Source: Microcella indica (lineage in GTDB: Bacteria > Actinomycetota > Actinomycetes > Actinomycetales > Microbacteriaceae). Taken from it: DNA of 64,000 bases. Under the pieces are notes generated by a model, which worked only from the letters and a program-made list of their open reading frames with translations, searched no databases and was not told where the DNA came from. Positions 26,909 to 60,276 of this stretch are shown here, piece after piece. Position 1 is the first letter of the stretch. Every line of letters begins with the position of its first letter. The stretch spans positions 620,001-684,000 of the forward strand of contig NZ_CP058670.1 in NCBI RefSeq assembly GCF_013414345.1, given 5' to 3'. A program made the translations under genes and the position numbers.

Positions 26909-27852
26909 TTAGTGGAGGGCGAGTTCTCCCGGCAGCGGTTGCTGTCGGGTGTTGATCTCACGGTAGTACTCCTTCTCCATCTCGATCGGGGTGAGATACC
27001 CGATCGAGGAGTGCAGGCGGTTCTCGTTGAACCAGTGCACCCAGGAAAGCGTCGCGAGCTCGAGCTGGTCGACGGTGCGGAAGGGGCCGTCGATCTTGAC
27101 GCACTCAGCCTTATAGAGCCCGATCGCCGACTCCGCCAGAGCATTGATGCTTAGGAGTCGCCCACGGTTCCGATCGAGGCGATCGCGCCGGCATCTGCGA
27201 GGCGGTCGGCGTAGCGAATTGCAGTGTATTGAGCTCCGGCGTCCGAATGTTGAATGACGCCCATGACGTCCTCGCCGGCGCGATCTCGAATCCACAGTGC
27301 CATCTCCAACGCGTCCAACGGCAGCTCGGTCGGCATCCGACCCATGGTTCTCCAGCCCACGATGCGGCGGGAGAACACGTCGGTGACGAACGCGGTGAAC
27401 GCCATGCCCGACCAGGTGGGCACGTAGGTGAAGTCCACGACCCAGAGCTGGTTCGGCCGGCAGGCGGTGAAGTCGCGGTTGACGTGGTCCTCCGGTCGCA
27501 GCGCCCTCTCGTCCGGCCTCGTGGTGATGAACTGTTTCCCGCGGCGAGTCCCGCGAAGACCCTGCTTTCGCATGAGTCGTTCGACGGTGCAGCGAGCGAC
27601 CGGGGTGCCTTCGCGGCGCAGCAGGTGCCACATCTTGCGCACCCCGCTGATCCCGCGGCCAAGCTTGCGGTCCCAGAAGACCCGCTCGATCTCGGCGATC
27701 AGCTGCTCATCGCGCACCGCTCTGGCGGAAGCGGGGCGCTTTTTGAAGGCGTAGTAACCCGACGGGGCAATCTTCACTCCGTGCTCGGTGAGCACTCGGC
27801 AGATTGGCTCGACCCCGAACCGGTCACGGTGATCGTCGATGAACTGGGTCAC
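26909..27852 (-). pseudogene. IS3 family transposase OrfB, frameshifted
   Basis: The N-terminal two-thirds read from GTG at 27852 (MTQFIDDHRDRFGVEPICRV) through the first Asp (WVVDFTYVPT) and QHSDAGAQY to GTVGDS, then hit a stop at about 27150. The expected YDNALAES motif is disrupted: the plus strand reads ATGCTT where a four-base TCGT would keep the frame, a net gain of two bases. The tail resumes in another frame as ALAESAIGLYKAECVKIDGP and ends at 26909. The second catalytic acid region is therefore lost from the product. Confidence 0.88.
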
Positions 27853-28175
27853 CAGGGAAGTCGCGGGTCGAGCTCCCGCGCGAAGAACGAGGAGGCCGCC
27901 AACAAGATCTCGTTGGCACGCTTCAGCTCACGCACTTCAGCCTCAAGATCCTTGATGCGCTTGGCCTCGCTCGTGGTCACCCCCGGCCGCTGCCCGGCAT
28001 CGATCGCGGCCTGCTTAGCCCAACCTCGAAGAGTGTCGGGGTTGACTCCGGTTCTCTGCCCGATCCGGATCACTGCCGCGTTCAGCGACAGCTCTGGATC
28101 TTCCCTCTGGGCTTCCTGCACGAGCCTGATCGCTCGCTCCCGCAACTCCTGCGGATACTTCCTTGGTGCTGGCAT
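27849..28175 (-). CDS. IS3 family transposase OrfA
   Basis: 108-aa HTH protein MPAPRKYPQELRERAIRLVQ ... ending in a leucine-zipper-like region (KRIKDLEAEVRELKRANEIL). It is standard OrfA of the IS3 family, binding the terminal repeats. Its stop overlaps the orfB start (GTGA) where programmed frameshifting normally makes OrfAB. ATG at 28175 gives the family N-terminus. Confidence 0.88.
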   Translation of the reverse strand: MPAPRKYPQELRERAIRLVQEAQREDPELSLNAAVIRIGQRTGVNPDTLRGWAKQAAIDAGQRPGVTTSEAKRIKDLEAEVRELKRANEILLAASSFFARELDPRLPW

Positions 28176-53469: not shown

Positions 53470-53605
53470 TAGGCTGTCACGCGCGAGGGGGAGTATCCCG
53501 ATTCGCCGCGATCGTCATCACGACCCGACTCTGCAGTCCGGTCCGGGCGCGGCGCCACCGTACTGGGGTGGGGGAGAGACCGTCGAGTTCCTCTGACCCC
53601 TCCCA
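53470..53605 (+). promoter_or_regulatory. probable yybP-ykoY manganese riboswitch with promoter
   Basis: A TAGGCT -10 box lies at 53470-53475, so transcription starts near 53482. The RNA then carries GGGGGAGTA-type sequence (53487-53494), CGTCATCACGACCCGA, and the closing GGGGGAGAGACCGTCGAG (53570-53587). These match the conserved L1 and L3 blocks of Mn2+-sensing yybP-ykoY RNAs. The fold brings the two GA-rich loops together. It directly precedes terC, a manganese-efflux type gene, so Mn2+ would induce it. Boundaries are approximate. Confidence 0.75.
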
Positions 53606-53618
53606 TCGAAAGGCTCCT

Positions 53619-54701
53619 GTGAGCGACGTCGTCATTCCCGTGTGGTTCGAGATCGGCTCTCTCATCGTGCTGAGCGCCATCCTTATCGTCGATCTGCTCC
53701 TCGTGATCAAGCGGCCGCACGTGCCGAGCCCGAAGGAGTCGGGGCTGTGGGTCGGGTTCTACGTGACTCTCGCGCTCATCTTCGCCGGGCTCATGTTCCT
53801 CATCGCGGGCGCCGACGCTGGTGGCGAGTTCGTGGCCGGCTGGCTCACCGAATACAGCCTCTCGATCGACAACCTGTTCGTGTTCGTGCTGATCATGGCG
53901 CAGTTCAGCGTTCCTCGGCGCATGCAGCAGCGCGTGCTCATGATCGGCATCATCCTGGCGCTGCTGTTCCGCGGCATCTTCATCCTGCTCGGTGCGGCCC
54001 TCATCGCGAACTTCAGCTGGGTCTTCTACATCTTCGGAGCGTTCCTTCTCGTCACCGCCGCGCAGCAGGCCTTCAGCGGCCGTGAGGACGACGAGGAGCG
54101 CGAGAGCAAGCTCATCGGGTTCCTGCGCAAGCGCATCCCAATCACCGACGAGTACGACGGCATGAAGATGCGCACACGCATCGATGGCAAGGCCTTCTTC
54201 ACGCCCCTGCTCATCGTCCTCATCGCGATCGGCACGACCGATGTGATCTTCGCCCTCGACTCGATTCCCGCGATCTTCGGCATCACCCAGAGCCCGTTCA
54301 TCGTCTTCACGGCGAACGTCTTCGCCCTCATGGGGCTGCGGCAGCTGTACTTCCTGCTCGGGCACCTCGTCGACAAGCTCGAATACCTCAAGTACGGCAT
54401 CGCGTTCATCCTCGCCTTCATCGGCGTCAAGCTCGTGCTGCACGCGCTCCACGAGAACGAGCTGCCCTTCATCAACGGCGGCGAGCACGTGCCCGTGCCC
54501 GAGATCGACACCTGGACGTCGCTCATCGTCATCCTCGTCGCCATGGCGGTGGCGGTCGTGCTGAGCCTGCTCAAGATCCGCCGCGAGGGCCGCTACCTGC
54601 CGACCGCGATCATCGGCAGTGCGGACGACGAGGAGGAGGGGTCCGAAGCCGCGTCTGCTGCGGCGGGGACCGAGAACACCGAGACTCGCAGCGGGCGCTG
54701 A
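53619..54701 (+). CDS. TerC family membrane protein, probable manganese exporter
   Basis: 360-aa protein with about nine membrane spans. Family signature acidic motifs lie in membrane segments: EYSLSIDNLFVFVLIMAQF and GTTDVIFALDSIPAIFGITQ, where the Asp residues probably bind metal. The C-terminus is acidic and Ser/Ala-rich. TerC/Alx proteins export Mn2+ or protect against tellurite. GTG at 53619 with GAAAGG upstream is favoured. The riboswitch upstream supports manganese as ligand. Confidence 0.9.
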   Translation: MSDVVIPVWFEIGSLIVLSAILIVDLLLVIKRPHVPSPKESGLWVGFYVTLALIFAGLMFLIAGADAGGEFVAGWLTEYSLSIDNLFVFVLIMAQFSVPRRMQQRVLMIGIILALLFRGIFILLGAALIANFSWVFYIFGAFLLVTAAQQAFSGREDDEERESKLIGFLRKRIPITDEYDGMKMRTRIDGKAFFTPLLIVLIAIGTTDVIFALDSIPAIFGITQSPFIVFTANVFALMGLRQLYFLLGHLVDKLEYLKYGIAFILAFIGVKLVLHALHENELPFINGGEHVPVPEIDTWTSLIVILVAMAVAVVLSLLKIRREGRYLPTAIIGSADDEEEGSEAASAAAGTENTETRSGR

Positions 54702-54732
54702 GCCGAGCATCCCCCGGTGGTAACCTGGCTCC

Positions 54733-54780
54733 ATGCAGCGCGAGCGGTTCCTTCTCCTTCGTCGCCGCGGCGAGTCCTGA
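54733..54780 (+). CDS. leucine-type leader peptide of the leuCD operon
   Basis: 15-codon frame MQRERFLLLRRRGES with three consecutive Leu codons (CTT CTC CTT). Its ATG lies 6 bases after a TAACCT -10 box (54721-54726), so the peptide would be translated from the very 5' end. It is followed by GC-rich complementary segments GCCGCGGCGA, CTCGCCGCGG and CCGCG/CGCGG (54761-54817) that could form alternative hairpins before leuC. This fits ribosome-mediated attenuation by leucyl-tRNA supply; no T-rich terminator tail is seen. Confidence 0.6.
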   Translation: MQRERFLLLRRRGES

Positions 54781-54856
54781 TCACCCCAGGTCGCATTCTC
54801 GCCGCGGAGTCTCGACGCGGCCGCTTCGATTCGAACTGCTAGAAGGGTGACCACCC

Positions 54857-56347
54857 ATGACGACCGATTCCGTGAGCACGACGACTGACCGGCCCCGCAC
54901 TCTCGCCGAGAAGGTCTGGGCCTCCCACCTCGTCGCCGAAGGCGCGAAGGGCGAGCCCGACCTGCTCTACATCGACCTGCACCTCGTGCACGAGGTCACG
55001 AGCCCGCAGGCCTTCGACGGCCTCCGTCTCGCCGGCCGTCCTGTGCGCCGCCCCGACCTGACGATCGCGACGGAAGACCACAACACTCCGACGCTCGCGA
55101 TCGACAAGCCCATCGCCGAGCCGACGAGCCGCAAGCAGATCGAGACGCTGCGCGCCAACGCGAAGGAGTTCGGGATTCGCCTGCACTCGCTCGGCGATGT
55201 CGAGCAGGGCATCGTGCACGTCGTCGGCCCGCAGCTGGGCCTCACGATGCCGGGCATCACGGTAGTGTGCGGCGACAGCCACACATCCACCCACGGCGCA
55301 TTCGGCGCCCTCGCCATGGGCATCGGCACGAGCGAGGTCGAGCACGTGCTCGCCACCCAGACGCTGCCCCTCAAGCCGTTCAAGACCATGGCGATCACGG
55401 TCGAGGGCGAGCTCAAGCCCGGCGTGACGGCGAAAGACATCATCCTCGCCGTCATCGCCAAGATCGGCACGGGCGGCGGGCAGGGCTACGTGCTCGAATA
55501 CCGCGGCTCGGCGATTCGCGCCCTCTCCATGGATGGCCGCATGACGATCTGCAACATGTCGATCGAGGCGGGTGCGCGGGCAGGCATGGTCGCCCCCGAC
55601 GAGACGACCTACGCCTACCTCAAGGGTCGCCCGCACGCTCCGGAAGGAGCCGACTGGGATGCAGCGGTCGAGTACTGGAACACGCTGCGCACCGATGACG
55701 ACGCCCTGTTCGACGCCGAGGTGTACCTCGACGCGAACGAGCTCGAGCCCTTCGTCACGTGGGGCACCAACCCCGGTCAGGGAGTCTCGCTGAGCGAGAG
55801 CGTTCCCGACCCCGCGACGATCATCGACGCCAACGAGCGTGCCGCGGCCGAGCGCGCCCTCGAGTACATGGACCTCGCCGCGGGCACGCCCATGAAGCAG
55901 ATTCCCGTCGACGCCGTGTTCATGGGCTCCTGCACCAACAGCCGGCTCGACGACCTGCGCGCGTTCACCTCGATCATCAAGGGCCAGAAGAAGGCCGAGG
56001 GTGTTCGCGTCATGGTCGTTCCCGGCTCTGCGCGCGTGCGTCTCGAAGCGGAGGCCGAAGGGCTCGACAAGATCGTCGAGGAGTTCGGTGCTGAATGGCG
56101 CTTCGCGGGCTGCTCCATGTGCCTGGGCATGAACCCCGACCAGCTCGCCCCGGGGGAGCGCTGCGCCTCCACGAGCAACCGCAACTTCGAGGGTCGGCAG
56201 GGCAAGGGCGGTCGCACCCACCTCGTGAGCCCGCTCGTCGCGGCGGCCACGGCCATCCGGGGCACGCTCTCGAGCCCGGCCGACCTGCTCGCGGACGGCA
56301 TTGCCGTCGATACTGAGTACACGGGCGTCGAGGGGGTGAGCGCGTAG
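54857..56347 (+). CDS. leuC: 3-isopropylmalate dehydratase large subunit
   Basis: 496-aa aconitase-family enzyme isomerising 2- to 3-isopropylmalate in leucine biosynthesis with LeuD. The [4Fe-4S] ligand cysteines are in [14 protein letters not shown] region (catalytic surrounding), [13 protein letters not shown] and [25 protein letters not shown] and [13 protein letters not shown] are conserved. It has standard length. Expression is probably tuned by the leader peptide at 54733. The stop overlaps leuD by one base. Confidence 0.97.
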
Positions 56348-56943
56348 TGGACAAGGTCACAACCGTCACCGGCGTCGCCGTGCCCCTGCGGCGCTCCAAC
56401 GTCGACACCGATCAGATCATCCCCGCCGTCTTCCTCAAGCGCGTCACGAAGACCGGCTACGACGACGGGCTCTTCCACGAGTGGCGGAAGGACCCGCAGT
56501 TCATCCTCAACCGCCCCGAGTACGCCGGCGCTCGCATCCTCATCACGGGCTCCGACTTCGGCACCGGCTCGAGCCGCGAGCACGCCGTGTGGGCTCTGCG
56601 CGACTTCGGCTTCGCCGCCGTGATCAGCCCCAAGTTCGCCGACATCTTCCGCGGCAACGCTGGCAAGCAGGGGCTGCTCGCCGGCCAGGTCGACGAGGCG
56701 ACGGTCGAGCAGTTCTGGGCCGAGCTCGAGGCGAGCCCCGGCATGGAGGCGACGGTCGACCTCGAGGCCCGCACCGTGACGGTGGGGAATATCACGGCCC
56801 CGTTCGAGATTGACGATTACACGCGCTGGCGCCTGCTCGAAGGGCTCGACGACATCGCGCTCACGCTGCGCGACGAGCAGGCGATCACCGATTTCGAAGC
56901 CCGCCGCGAAAGCTGGCGGCCGACGACTCTGCCCGCTCGCTGA
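56347..56943 (+). CDS. leuD: 3-isopropylmalate dehydratase small subunit
   Basis: 198-aa small subunit. Swivel-domain blocks [38 protein letters not shown] and [19 protein letters not shown] (part of GNAGKQGLL) are typical. GTG at 56347 overlaps the leuC stop, giving coupled translation and a balanced complex. The C-terminus ([16 protein letters not shown]) is normal for actinobacteria. Confidence 0.97.
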
Positions 56944-56981
56944 CGCGGGCGGCGCAGAGACAACGCACCAGGAAAGGGCGC

Positions 56982-58349
56982 ATGAACTCGCTCACCCAGG
57001 ATTCGCAGAAGGCCGCCGCACGCGTCGGTCTCGTCTCCGACAGCATCACCATCCACGGCGGCAAGCCGCTGCGGGGTCGCGTGGAAGTGCGCGGCGCCAA
57101 GAACCTCGTCACCAAGGCGATGGTCGCCTCTCTGCTCGCCGACACCCCCAGCACTCTCAAGGGCGTGCCCGAGATCAGCGACGTCGCCGTCGTGAGCGGG
57201 CTGCTCAAGGCGCACGGGGTCGCGATCGACTCCTCCGCGCCCGGCGTGCTCACGCTCGACCCGAGCAACGTGGTCGGCGCGCACTTCGCCGAGATCGACG
57301 CGCACGCCGGCTCGAGCCGCATCCCGATCCTGTTCTGCGGCCCCCTCCTGCACCAGCTCGGCGAGGCCTTCATCCCCGACCTCGGCGGCTGCCGCATCGG
57401 CGACCGCCCCATCGACTTCCACCTCAACGCCCTGCGCGCCTTCGGGGCGGTCGTCGAGAAGTCGTACCAGGGCATCCACCTCACGGCGCCCCACAAGCTC
57501 GTCGGCGCCGATATCGACCTGCCGTTCCCGAGCGTCGGGGCGACCGAGCAGGTGCTCCTCACGGCGGTGCGGGCGGAGGGCACGACCGAGCTCAAGAACG
57601 CCGCGATCGAGCCCGAGATCATGGACCTCATCGCGATCCTGCAGAAGATGGGCGCGATCATCTCGGTCGAGCCCAACCGCGTCATCGTCATCGAGGGCGT
57701 GGAGACGCTGCGCGGCTACAACCACACCGCGATCTTCGACCGCAACGAGGCCGCGAGCTGGGCGGCGGCGGCGCTCGCGACGGGCGGCGACATCACTGTC
57801 GGCGGTGCGACGCAGCAAGAGCTCATGACCTTCCTCAACGTCTACCGCAAGGTCGGCGGCGAATTCGACGTGCTCGAGGACGGCATCCGCTTCTGGCACC
57901 CTGGAGGCCCGCTCAAGCCCGTCATGATCGAGACGGATGTGCACCCCGGCTTCATGACGGACTGGCAGCAGCCGCTCATCGTGGCCCTCACCCAGGCGGA
58001 GGGCGAGTCGGTCGTGCACGAGACGGTGTACGAGAACCGCTTCGGCTTCACGGAGGCGCTCAACGAGATGGGCGCGAACATCGTCGTGCACCAGTCGGGG
58101 CTCGCCTCCATCACGCGCCGCGTGCCGCGCCGACCGCTCGAGCAGGCCGCTGTCATCACGGGGCCGACCCCGTTGCACGGCGCCGACGTGCGTGTGCCCG
58201 ACCTGCGCGGCGGCTTCAGCCACCTCATCGCCGCGCTCGCGGCGGAGGGCACGTCGACGGTGAGCAACGTGGGCATCATCAGCCGCGGCTACGAGCTGTT
58301 CATCGACAAGCTGCGGCAGCTGGGCGCCGACTTCGAGCTGCCCTCCTGA
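56982..58349 (+). CDS. murA: UDP-N-acetylglucosamine 1-carboxyvinyltransferase
   Basis: 455-aa enolpyruvyl transferase catalysing the first committed step of peptidoglycan precursor synthesis. The catalytic Cys is retained in DLGGCRIGDRPIDFH (Cys137), so fosfomycin sensitivity at the target is expected. Other blocks: RGAKNLVTKAMVASLLADTP, and FPSVGATEQVLL. The N-terminus has about 18 extra residues before the enzyme fold. It lies 38 bases after leuD, likely in the same operon region. Confidence 0.95.
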   Translation: MNSLTQDSQKAAARVGLVSDSITIHGGKPLRGRVEVRGAKNLVTKAMVASLLADTPSTLKGVPEISDVAVVSGLLKAHGVAIDSSAPGVLTLDPSNVVGAHFAEIDAHAGSSRIPILFCGPLLHQLGEAFIPDLGGCRIGDRPIDFHLNALRAFGAVVEKSYQGIHLTAPHKLVGADIDLPFPSVGATEQVLLTAVRAEGTTELKNAAIEPEIMDLIAILQKMGAIISVEPNRVIVIEGVETLRGYNHTAIFDRNEAASWAAAALATGGDITVGGATQQELMTFLNVYRKVGGEFDVLEDGIRFWHPGGPLKPVMIETDVHPGFMTDWQQPLIVALTQAEGESVVHETVYENRFGFTEALNEMGANIVVHQSGLASITRRVPRRPLEQAAVITGPTPLHGADVRVPDLRGGFSHLIAALAAEGTSTVSNVGIISRGYELFIDKLRQLGADFELPS

Positions 58350-58415
58350 GCTGCTCGCACCGTCATGACCGACTCCATTCCTGCGCCGGCATTCGTCACG
58401 CACTAGCCTGTACCC

Positions 58416-59201
58416 GTGACTGACGCCACCCCCGCGACCGTCGACGACGACGGCCGCCCCGCGCGCCGTCGACGCCGGGAGAAGACCGCACTCTGGTACG
58501 TGATCGCGGCCCTGTGCCTCCCGCTCCTGACCCTCATGGCGCGGTTCCCCGTCATCGACGGCCACAAGCTTCCCCGTCAGGGCGCCTTCATCCTCGCGCC
58601 CAACCACTACAGCGAGATCGACCCCGTCATCATGGGCCGCTTCATGTGGAAGCTCGGGCGGGTTCCGCGCTTTCTCGCGAAAGCCTCCGTCTTCCGTGTT
58701 CCCGTGCTCGGTGCGATCCTGCGCTGGTCCGGTCAGATTCCGGTGGAGCGGGAGGGGCGGGGGCGGCCGGATGCTCCGCTCAAGGCGGCGCAGCAGCTCG
58801 TCGATCGCGAGCTCGCGATCATCATCTACCCCGAGGGCACCCTCACGCGCGACCCCGACCTGTGGCCCATGCGGGGCAAGAGCGGCGCGGTGCGCATGGC
58901 GCTCACCGCGGGCGTGCCGATCATTCCCGCCGCGCACTGGGGCACGCAGCAGATCATGGCGCGCTACTCGAAGAAGATCAGCTTCTTCCCCCGCAAGACC
59001 ATCTACTGCAAGATCGGCGATCCCGTCGACCTGAGCGACCTCGAGGGGCGTCCGCTCGACTCGGCGACGCTCGCCGAGGGCACGCGTCGCGTCATGACGG
59101 CGATCGCCGACCTGCTCGGCGACCTGCGCGACGAGCAGCCGCCGGCGGAGCGCTGGGATCCCGCGAAGAACAACCAGGCCGAGACGGGCCGCTTTGAGTG
59201 A
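58416..59201 (+). CDS. 1-acyl-sn-glycerol-3-phosphate acyltransferase (PlsC-like)
   Basis: 261-aa membrane-associated acyltransferase that makes phosphatidic acid from lysophosphatidate. The active motif NHYSEIDP is the HX4D box, and YPEGTLTRD binds glycerol phosphate. One N-terminal hydrophobic segment (LWYVIAALCLPLLTLMARF) anchors it. Leaderless promoter TAGCCT at 58404-58409, 6 bases before GTG. It overlaps gpsA by 8 bases, linking two consecutive steps of phospholipid synthesis. Confidence 0.92.
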   Translation: MTDATPATVDDDGRPARRRRREKTALWYVIAALCLPLLTLMARFPVIDGHKLPRQGAFILAPNHYSEIDPVIMGRFMWKLGRVPRFLAKASVFRVPVLGAILRWSGQIPVEREGRGRPDAPLKAAQQLVDRELAIIIYPEGTLTRDPDLWPMRGKSGAVRMALTAGVPIIPAAHWGTQQIMARYSKKISFFPRKTIYCKIGDPVDLSDLEGRPLDSATLAEGTRRVMTAIADLLGDLRDEQPPAERWDPAKNNQAETGRFE

Positions 59202-60276
59202 CGAGGGCGCGTCACGCGAGCATCCGCCTCTGACGGAAGCGGTGCGATTGCCGCTGCCGAACCTCGATGCTGACGCGCCGCGCGTCGCCGTGCTCGGCGC
59301 CGGCTCGTGGGGCACGACGTTCGCGAAGATCCTCGCCGATGGCGGTGCCGACGTCGTCATGTGGGCGCGCCGGCGCGAGGTCGCGCAGGAGATCACCGAG
59401 ACCCACCGCAACAGCGGCTACCTGCCCGGCATCAACCTGCCCGGCAATCTGCGCGGCCACGACTCGCTCGAGCACGTGCTCGCGGGTGCCGAGCAGGTGT
59501 ACCTCTCGGTGCCGAGCCAGAGCTTGCGCGCCAACCTCGCCTCGATTCGCGACATCGTGCCCGCCGACGTGCCCGTCGTGAGCCTCATGAAGGGGGTCGA
59601 GAAGGGCAGCGGGCTGCGCATGAGCGAGGTGATCCGCGACGAGCTGCGCATCGACGAGGAGCGCATCGCCGTCGTGAGCGGCCCCAACCTGGCCCTCGAG
59701 ATCGCGAAGCGCCAGCCGACCGCGGCCGTCGTCTCGAGCGCCCACCGCGACACCGCCGTCGCCGTCGCGCAGGTCGCGTCGAACGAGTACTTCCGCTGCT
59801 TCGTCAACACCGACGTCGTCGGCACCGAGTTCGGGGGAGTGCTCAAGAACCTCATCGCCGTGGCCGTGGGCATCGCCGACGGCGTGGGCTACGGCGAGAA
59901 CACGAAGGCATCGATCATCACCCGCGGGCTTGTCGAGATCACCGACTTCGCGGTCGCGTTCGGCGGCCGCTCCGAGACCATGACGGGGCTCGCGGGTCTC
60001 GGCGACCTCATCGCGACGTGCGAATCCCCGCTCTCGCGCAACAACACGGCGGGCCGTCTGCTCGGTCAGGGCTACGCCTTCGCGCAAGTGATCGCCCAGA
60101 TGAACCAGACCGCAGAGGGTCTCTCCTCCGTCGGCCCGATTCTCGAACTGGCATCCACCAAGGGCGTCTCGATGCCGATCGTCGCGCAGGTCGCGCGTGT
60201 GCTCGAGGGAACCCTCGACCCGCGCGAGCTCGCCCCGCACCTCGCCACGGATTCCGACGAGCCTCAAGGGGAGTGA
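59194..60276 (+). CDS. gpsA: glycerol-3-phosphate dehydrogenase (NAD(P)+)
   Basis: 360-aa enzyme reducing dihydroxyacetone phosphate to sn-glycerol-3-phosphate for phospholipids. NAD-binding VAVLGAGSWGTTFAKILAD, substrate-site SGPNLALEIAK, LKNLIAVAVGIADG and GLAGLGDLIATC are diagnostic. The TTG at 59194 overlaps plsC and adds about 28 non-conserved residues before the Rossmann motif; a later start is possible but none with a better site is obvious. Feeds PlsC. Confidence 0.95.
   Translation: MSDEGASREHPPLTEAVRLPLPNLDADAPRVAVLGAGSWGTTFAKILADGGADVVMWARRREVAQEITETHRNSGYLPGINLPGNLRGHDSLEHVLAGAEQVYLSVPSQSLRANLASIRDIVPADVPVVSLMKGVEKGSGLRMSEVIRDELRIDEERIAVVSGPNLALEIAKRQPTAAVVSSAHRDTAVAVAQVASNEYFRCFVNTDVVGTEFGGVLKNLIAVAVGIADGVGYGENTKASIITRGLVEITDFAVAFGGRSETMTGLAGLGDLIATCESPLSRNNTAGRLLGQGYAFAQVIAQMNQTAEGLSSVGPILELASTKGVSMPIVAQVARVLEGTLDPRELAPHLATDSDEPQGE

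Follow-up and report, generated by a model that had tools for sequence, protein, structure and literature searches.

A probable LEU element upstream of leuC in Microcella indica and its relatives among the Microbacteriaceae

The leader upstream of leuC

What lies ahead of the leucine biosynthesis genes leuC and leuD in Microcella indica? We address this question in a window of 64,000 nt (the whole stretch of DNA analyzed; contig bases 620001–684000, within a 2.59 Mb genome), where a TerC/Alx-family gene at 53568–54701 is followed by a short leader and then by leuCD. The parts of this locus, in window coordinates, are as follows:

54718–54726, + strand: extended −10 box TGG-TAACCT, read from the sequence; the TANNNT form is seen in homologous elements
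54733–54780, + strand: upstream open reading frame (uORF) of 15 codons, MQRERFLLLRRRGES and a stop, predicted to be leaderless; conserved in genus and family
54751–54759, + strand: putative regulatory Leu codons CTT CTC CTT; three Leu codons stand here in 97 of 102 elements
54756–54760, + strand: CCUUC strand of the base stem, paired in the minimum-free-energy (MFE) fold with the leuC Shine-Dalgarno site
54765–54774, + strand: 5′ arm of the main hairpin, CCGCGGCGAG, within the uORF; 980 of 980 cells paired, five compensatory pairs
54789–54794, + strand: loop strand GGTCGC of a predicted H-type pseudoknot, pairing with 54817–54822 (permutation test)
54798–54807, + strand: 3′ arm of the main hairpin, CTCGCCGCGG (covariation)
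54817–54822, + strand: downstream strand GCGGCC of the predicted pseudoknot (permutation test), overlapping CGCGGC at 54816–54821
54842–54847, + strand: leuC Shine-Dalgarno site GAAGGG, 9 nt ahead of the ATG; GAAGG in all genus copies
54857–56347, + strand: leuC, 3-isopropylmalate dehydratase large subunit (TIGR00170, E 1.7e-219)
56347–56943, + strand: leuD, 3-isopropylmalate dehydratase small subunit (TIGR00171, E 9.5e-56)

A sequence-only reading of this DNA had described a 15-codon frame with CTT CTC CTT and RRR, preceded at six bases by TAACCT, and the sequence is exactly as it said. The hexamer occupies 54721–54726, the ATG begins at 54733, the CGT CGC CGC run comes after the Leu codons, and the TGA at 54778–54780 leaves a gap of 76 nt to leuC. 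Transcription presumably starts at, or adjoining, the A of the uORF ATG (54733); a sigma-70 scan around the leader gave no hit, and a consensus −35 is absent. The predicted hairpin- and pseudoknot-forming region overlaps and follows the uORF. Near the leader, an Rfam scan returned no family at gathering score, and with E values up to 10 allowed its sole match to the leader was a chance one on the opposite strand (E 5.1). Because the folding energy of the leader is not unusual relative to shuffles (z = −0.62), the evidence for it lies in conservation and covariation, not in stability.

Downstream, the order is leuC-leuD-murA, then acyltransferase-like and gpsA-like genes, all on one strand (54857–60276). 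The leuC-leuD-murA order is kept at most Micrococcales loci inspected, and the leader might therefore act on murA as well. Structured RNAs lie elsewhere in the window as well. ALIL pseudoknots are usually frameshift signals of insertion sequences. One such pseudoknot lies at 27763–27891 on the − strand (RF01497, 60.8 bits), and a glycine riboswitch aptamer lies at 2159–2259 (Rfam RF00504, 58.4 bits).

Conservation and distribution of the element

Is the leader conserved among close relatives? Among the 26 Microcella genomes searched, 22 besides the source genome have an intact leuC 5′ region (L002–L023), and the uORF frame is present in all 22, most copies ending in LLRRR[G/D]E[S/A] and a stop. 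A TANNNT box stands about 6–7 nt ahead of the ATG or GTG of the uORF, the sequence further upstream of the box differs, and the GAAGG Shine-Dalgarno core occurs in every leuC copy of the genus. The number and position of Leu codons vary toward the N terminus, some genus-mates having only two (L018–L021), and the two codons adjoining the hairpin arm are nearly always Leu. A Gly/Asp switch in the peptide (RRRG or RRRD) tracks the pairing partner in the hairpin. The RRR run, which the sequence-only reading named alongside the Leu codons, is not a signature of the peptide but the coding content of the hairpin arm: Family peptides read SCR, RCR, or SGR at this position, many copies being LLLLSCR.

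The hairpin itself is strongly supported by covariation. Over 98 distinct leuA and leuC elements, its ten pairs are formed in 980 of 980 cells, with compensatory change in five pairs and 46 compensatory cells against 11.2 in shuffles (0 of 500 reached that number), a count that leans upward, as the 98-element alignment was fitted to the hairpin structure. In the unfitted genus alignment, one hairpin pair shows the same series of G-C, G-U, and A-U. For the pairing of the loop with the downstream strand, none of 500 permutations of the partners did as well as the true combinations over 97 distinct elements; in the leuC subset alone this signal is weaker, with 45 or 8 of 500 permutations doing as well, depending on the window setting. 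Of the alternative GC hairpins that had been envisaged, the main one is thus borne out by its covariation, and a second remains a possibility read from the sequence, in which CGCGGC at 54816–54821 could instead pair with 54801–54806.

How widespread is the element, and before which genes does it stand? We searched the source genome with a degenerate pattern and with a covariance model, the latter built from 21 leuC leaders and one leuA leader (the source genome's own). Only the core was aligned in this model, because the position and distance of the Shine-Dalgarno site differ between leuA and leuC leaders. The single perfect pattern match in the genome is the leuC leader, and a two-mismatch match at 1100880 lies ~100 nt upstream of the leuA start, where it encodes the leader VFGQLLLRCRDEA and a stop, with TACCCT six bases before its GTG. 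This leuA copy scores 73 bits with the covariance model. Other near-matches to the pattern (L032, L033, and L035) were set aside, as they have no downstream arm and lie in other sequence context.

The covariance model matches 95 of 100 Microbacteriaceae genomes, with at least two matches in 60 of them; in the class as a whole it matches 110 of 198, mostly a single time. It thereby recovers leuA leaders throughout the class from a training set made up mostly of leuC leaders, which points to homology with the leuA elements. All 58 of the top-scoring loci returned sit upstream of leuA or leuC. The 18 Microbacteriaceae genomes with both copies that we inspected have one before leuA and one before leuC, and two of them have a third element before a second leuA. 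Outside the Microbacteriaceae, the elements occur before leuA.

The copy before leuC appears confined to one family. Among 80 named leuC loci, the element is present at 19, all from Microbacteriaceae: Leifsonia, Agromyces, Cryobacterium, Microbacterium, Terrimesophilobacter, Glaciibacter, Leucobacter, Rathayibacter, and a metagenome-assembled genome. Within these 80 loci, no leuC copy was found at Arthrobacter, Kocuria, Cellulomonas, Streptomyces, Mycobacterium, or other non-Microbacteriaceae loci, the broader model included; within the family, none was found at the model's sensitivity in Curtobacterium, Frigoribacterium, Agrococcus, Rhodoluna, or Salinibacterium. The nearest named relatives of the M. 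indica LeuC are themselves from Microbacteriaceae (Leifsonia, Agromyces, Salinibacterium, and others).

The start geometry is retained across this breadth. In 102 of 115 leuA and leuC copies, an in-frame start follows a TANNNT box at a distance of 5–8 nt, compared with 1.1% of composition-shuffled upstream sequences, and TGNTANNNT is found at the box in 81 of 103 homologous elements. The leuA and leuC copies are slightly more alike within a genome (identity 0.849) than across genomes (0.829; 47 of 2,000 permutations, 14 genomes). Concerted evolution of the two copies may underlie this slight excess, and shared base composition can explain it too.

How does the leader compare with known systems? 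In the Rfam Leu_leader of gamma-proteobacteria, leu genes are likewise preceded by a leader peptide with leucine codons; the leuC element differs from it in matching no Rfam family. Its counterpart is the LEU element that Seliverstov et al. (2005; PMC1262725) found before leuA in most Actinobacteria and described with a Leu-codon/Shine-Dalgarno stem and a pseudoknot, a look-alike being noted in a Bifidobacterium longum transposase. The leuC leader shares with it the short uORF with a run of Leu codons, the pseudoknot-capable hairpin, the ability of the Leu codons to pair with the Shine-Dalgarno site, and the lack of a terminator. It differs in setting: the published element precedes leuA, whereas the second copy of the Microbacteriaceae precedes leuC. 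Position before leuA is the published setting of the LEU element and not part of its structure. The leuC leader is almost certainly a LEU element, and its anatomy is already known from the element described before leuA in 2005. The earlier proposal of a leucine-sensing leaderless uORF for leuCD is well supported by conservation, though it concerns a copy of this element and not an isolated feature.

Other leuA leaders fit the same picture. LeuL1 of Streptomyces lividans TK24, MRFGLLLLSCRGEGL and a stop, is leaderless by RNA-seq and has no Rho-independent terminator (PMC8079986); it shares the LLLLSCR pattern with many Microbacteriaceae copies and differs in preceding leuA. uORFs before leuA have also been reported in Corynebacterium glutamicum (PMC4046766) and Mycobacterium abscessus (PMC4974804). 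The ilvB leader attenuators of Corynebacterium and Mycobacterium resemble the leuC leader in having a branched-chain uORF with regulatory codons, but they alone carry a terminator hairpin with a U-tract (PMC1262725; PMC13236596 for Mycobacterium tuberculosis).

Leu codons, Shine-Dalgarno pairing, and the mode of control

The Leu codons of the leaders are distinctive in identity as well as in position. In 102 leaders, CUU accounts for 186 of 401 Leu codons (46%), against 39 of 1,379 (2.8%) in the stretches of leuA and leuC just downstream, and every leader except one has CTT next to the hairpin. A single tRNA normally decodes both CUU and CUC, which makes them plausible sensor codons. CUCCUU also matches the anti-Shine-Dalgarno sequence, and the two roles cannot be separated from these data.

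In the MFE fold from the Leu codons on, CCUUC (54756–54760) pairs with GAAGG of the leuC Shine-Dalgarno site (54842–54846). This pairing comes to −9.47 kcal/mol in leuC copies and −7.41 kcal/mol with synonymous Leu codons drawn from gene usage, and 20 of 46 leuC copies beat such controls at the 5% level. In leuA copies, where the source genome has AGGAG instead of GAAGG, pairing is no better than in synonymous controls (−9.13 and −9.12 kcal/mol), so the Leu-codon/Shine-Dalgarno stem is supported for leuC only. When the Leu codons are masked in constraint folding, with RNAfold leaving the pseudoknot out of its folds, mean Shine-Dalgarno accessibility of leuC copies rises from 0.28 to 0.42 (an increase in 29 of 46). 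The source genome's own copy is almost flat (0.39 to 0.41), and a longer transcript of it folds the Shine-Dalgarno site with ACCC by the start codon instead.

How might such a leader act? We envisage that the transcript starts at the uORF ATG, which would be translated without a leader. With ample charged Leu-tRNA, the ribosome would pass the Leu codons and exit at the UGA; the RNA vacated in this way would fold into the hairpin and pseudoknot, with the Leu codons paired to the Shine-Dalgarno site of leuC, whose translation would then be poor. Under leucine shortage, the ribosome would stall at CUU/CUC and sit on the strand that pairs with the Shine-Dalgarno site as well as on some of the hairpin's 5′ arm, which would free the leuC site. 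Conservation, the hairpin, the spacing of box and start, the codon bias, and the association with these genes are observed; that transcription is leaderless, that the ribosome stalls, that leucine is sensed, and that the output is translation and not Rho-dependent termination is what we infer from them. Taken as a whole, this leucine-responsive attenuation of leuC translation is, in our judgment, reasonably probable.

Several observations tell against the mechanism: the near-flat accessibility in the source genome's own copy and the alternative fold of its longer transcript, the ordinary Shine-Dalgarno pairing of leuA copies, the genus-mates with two Leu codons, and published mutants of a leuA leader (PMC1262725). 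It also has to be weighed against other readings of the same features. Attenuation of the classical kind, with terminator and antiterminator hairpins as in trp or ilvB leaders, would suit the regulatory codons of the leader peptide and the alternative pairing that may be open to the RNA. However, a terminator scan found no terminator-like site in 54500–55000, the copy itself has no U-tract, and just 4 of 115 copies have six T in the 8 nt between hairpin and gene. Lacking an intrinsic terminator, the leader is likelier to attenuate translation, and classical attenuation is highly improbable. The missing terminator sits well with Rho-dependent termination ahead of leuC, in which ribosomes that stall or move on would shield RNA from Rho or lay it open, as does the discussion of Rho for analogous cys leaders without terminators (PMC1262725). 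Yet the Leu-codon strand complements the leuC Shine-Dalgarno site beyond what typical Leu codons would, and a pure Rho model needs no such match. We favor translation attenuation, because a stalled ribosome would cover the Shine-Dalgarno-pairing strand and accessibility rises on average, and place Rho-dependent termination next, as an unlikely but credible alternative.

A different reading makes the uORF incidental and the element a binding site for a regulatory protein. Mutations in the leuA leader of Streptomyces coelicolor had effects inconsistent with classical attenuation, and a protein-binding site was the explanation proposed and preferred (PMC1262725); the greater conservation of RNA structure than of peptide would agree. 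An incidental uORF is nevertheless hard to reconcile with the finding that 102 of 115 copies preserve the frame and the geometry of its start, that 97 of 102 retain three Leu codons, and that rare CUU is enriched, and we consider protein binding decidedly unlikely. That the leader is a chance short frame in GC-rich intergenic DNA might seem compatible with its unremarkable folding energy, but conservation and covariation in about 100 genomes refute this, leaving it a negligible probability.

Relatives near leuB and the idea of a movable module

Is the element also found outside the leuA and leuC settings? A related leader in which Ile-Leu codons appear, such as MLWTVRILRCRDEAR and a stop, occurs in six genomes of the class, drawn from three families:

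L100, L103, L219, L221, L223, and L224, about 1500–1700 in each: Ile-Leu leaders outside the leuA and leuC settings

These uORFs end in ILRCRDEAR and a stop, or similar, with Ile-Leu replacing Leu-Leu. Behind the leaders inspected comes a frame of 20–35 amino acids, in which a stretch resembling ALQE[S/A]MDRRD is conserved; leuB comes next in five of six. Three of the small proteins were compared with protein families, with no match in NCBIfam and none above cut-off in Pfam. In the literature searched, which left most subscription papers outside, we found no report of a LEU element before leuC. We regard as new both the family-wide leuC copy in Microbacteriaceae and the Ile-Leu relatives near leuB in other families.

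We tentatively suggest that the leucine pathway has a movable regulatory module in the LEU element, an idea whose chances we put at somewhat below even. It would have been duplicated onto leuC in the Microbacteriaceae, so that two steps of the pathway sense Leu-tRNA alike, and recoded with Ile-Leu before a small protein by leuB in other families, with the rare CUU/CUC codons doing double duty, as sensors and as an anti-Shine-Dalgarno strand. The mechanism of the LEU element has been unsettled since 2005. Genomes with two copies, each before a gene with its own Shine-Dalgarno sequence, allow the pairing model to be tested by natural compensation, and the Microbacteriaceae offer a tractable system for testing leucine sensing by leaderless uORFs.

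A further LEU element, at 1501–1566 of locus L220, precedes a LeuA-like protein that shares only 27% identity with the LeuA of the source genome; given this low identity, a second, diverged type of synthase also has a LEU leader.
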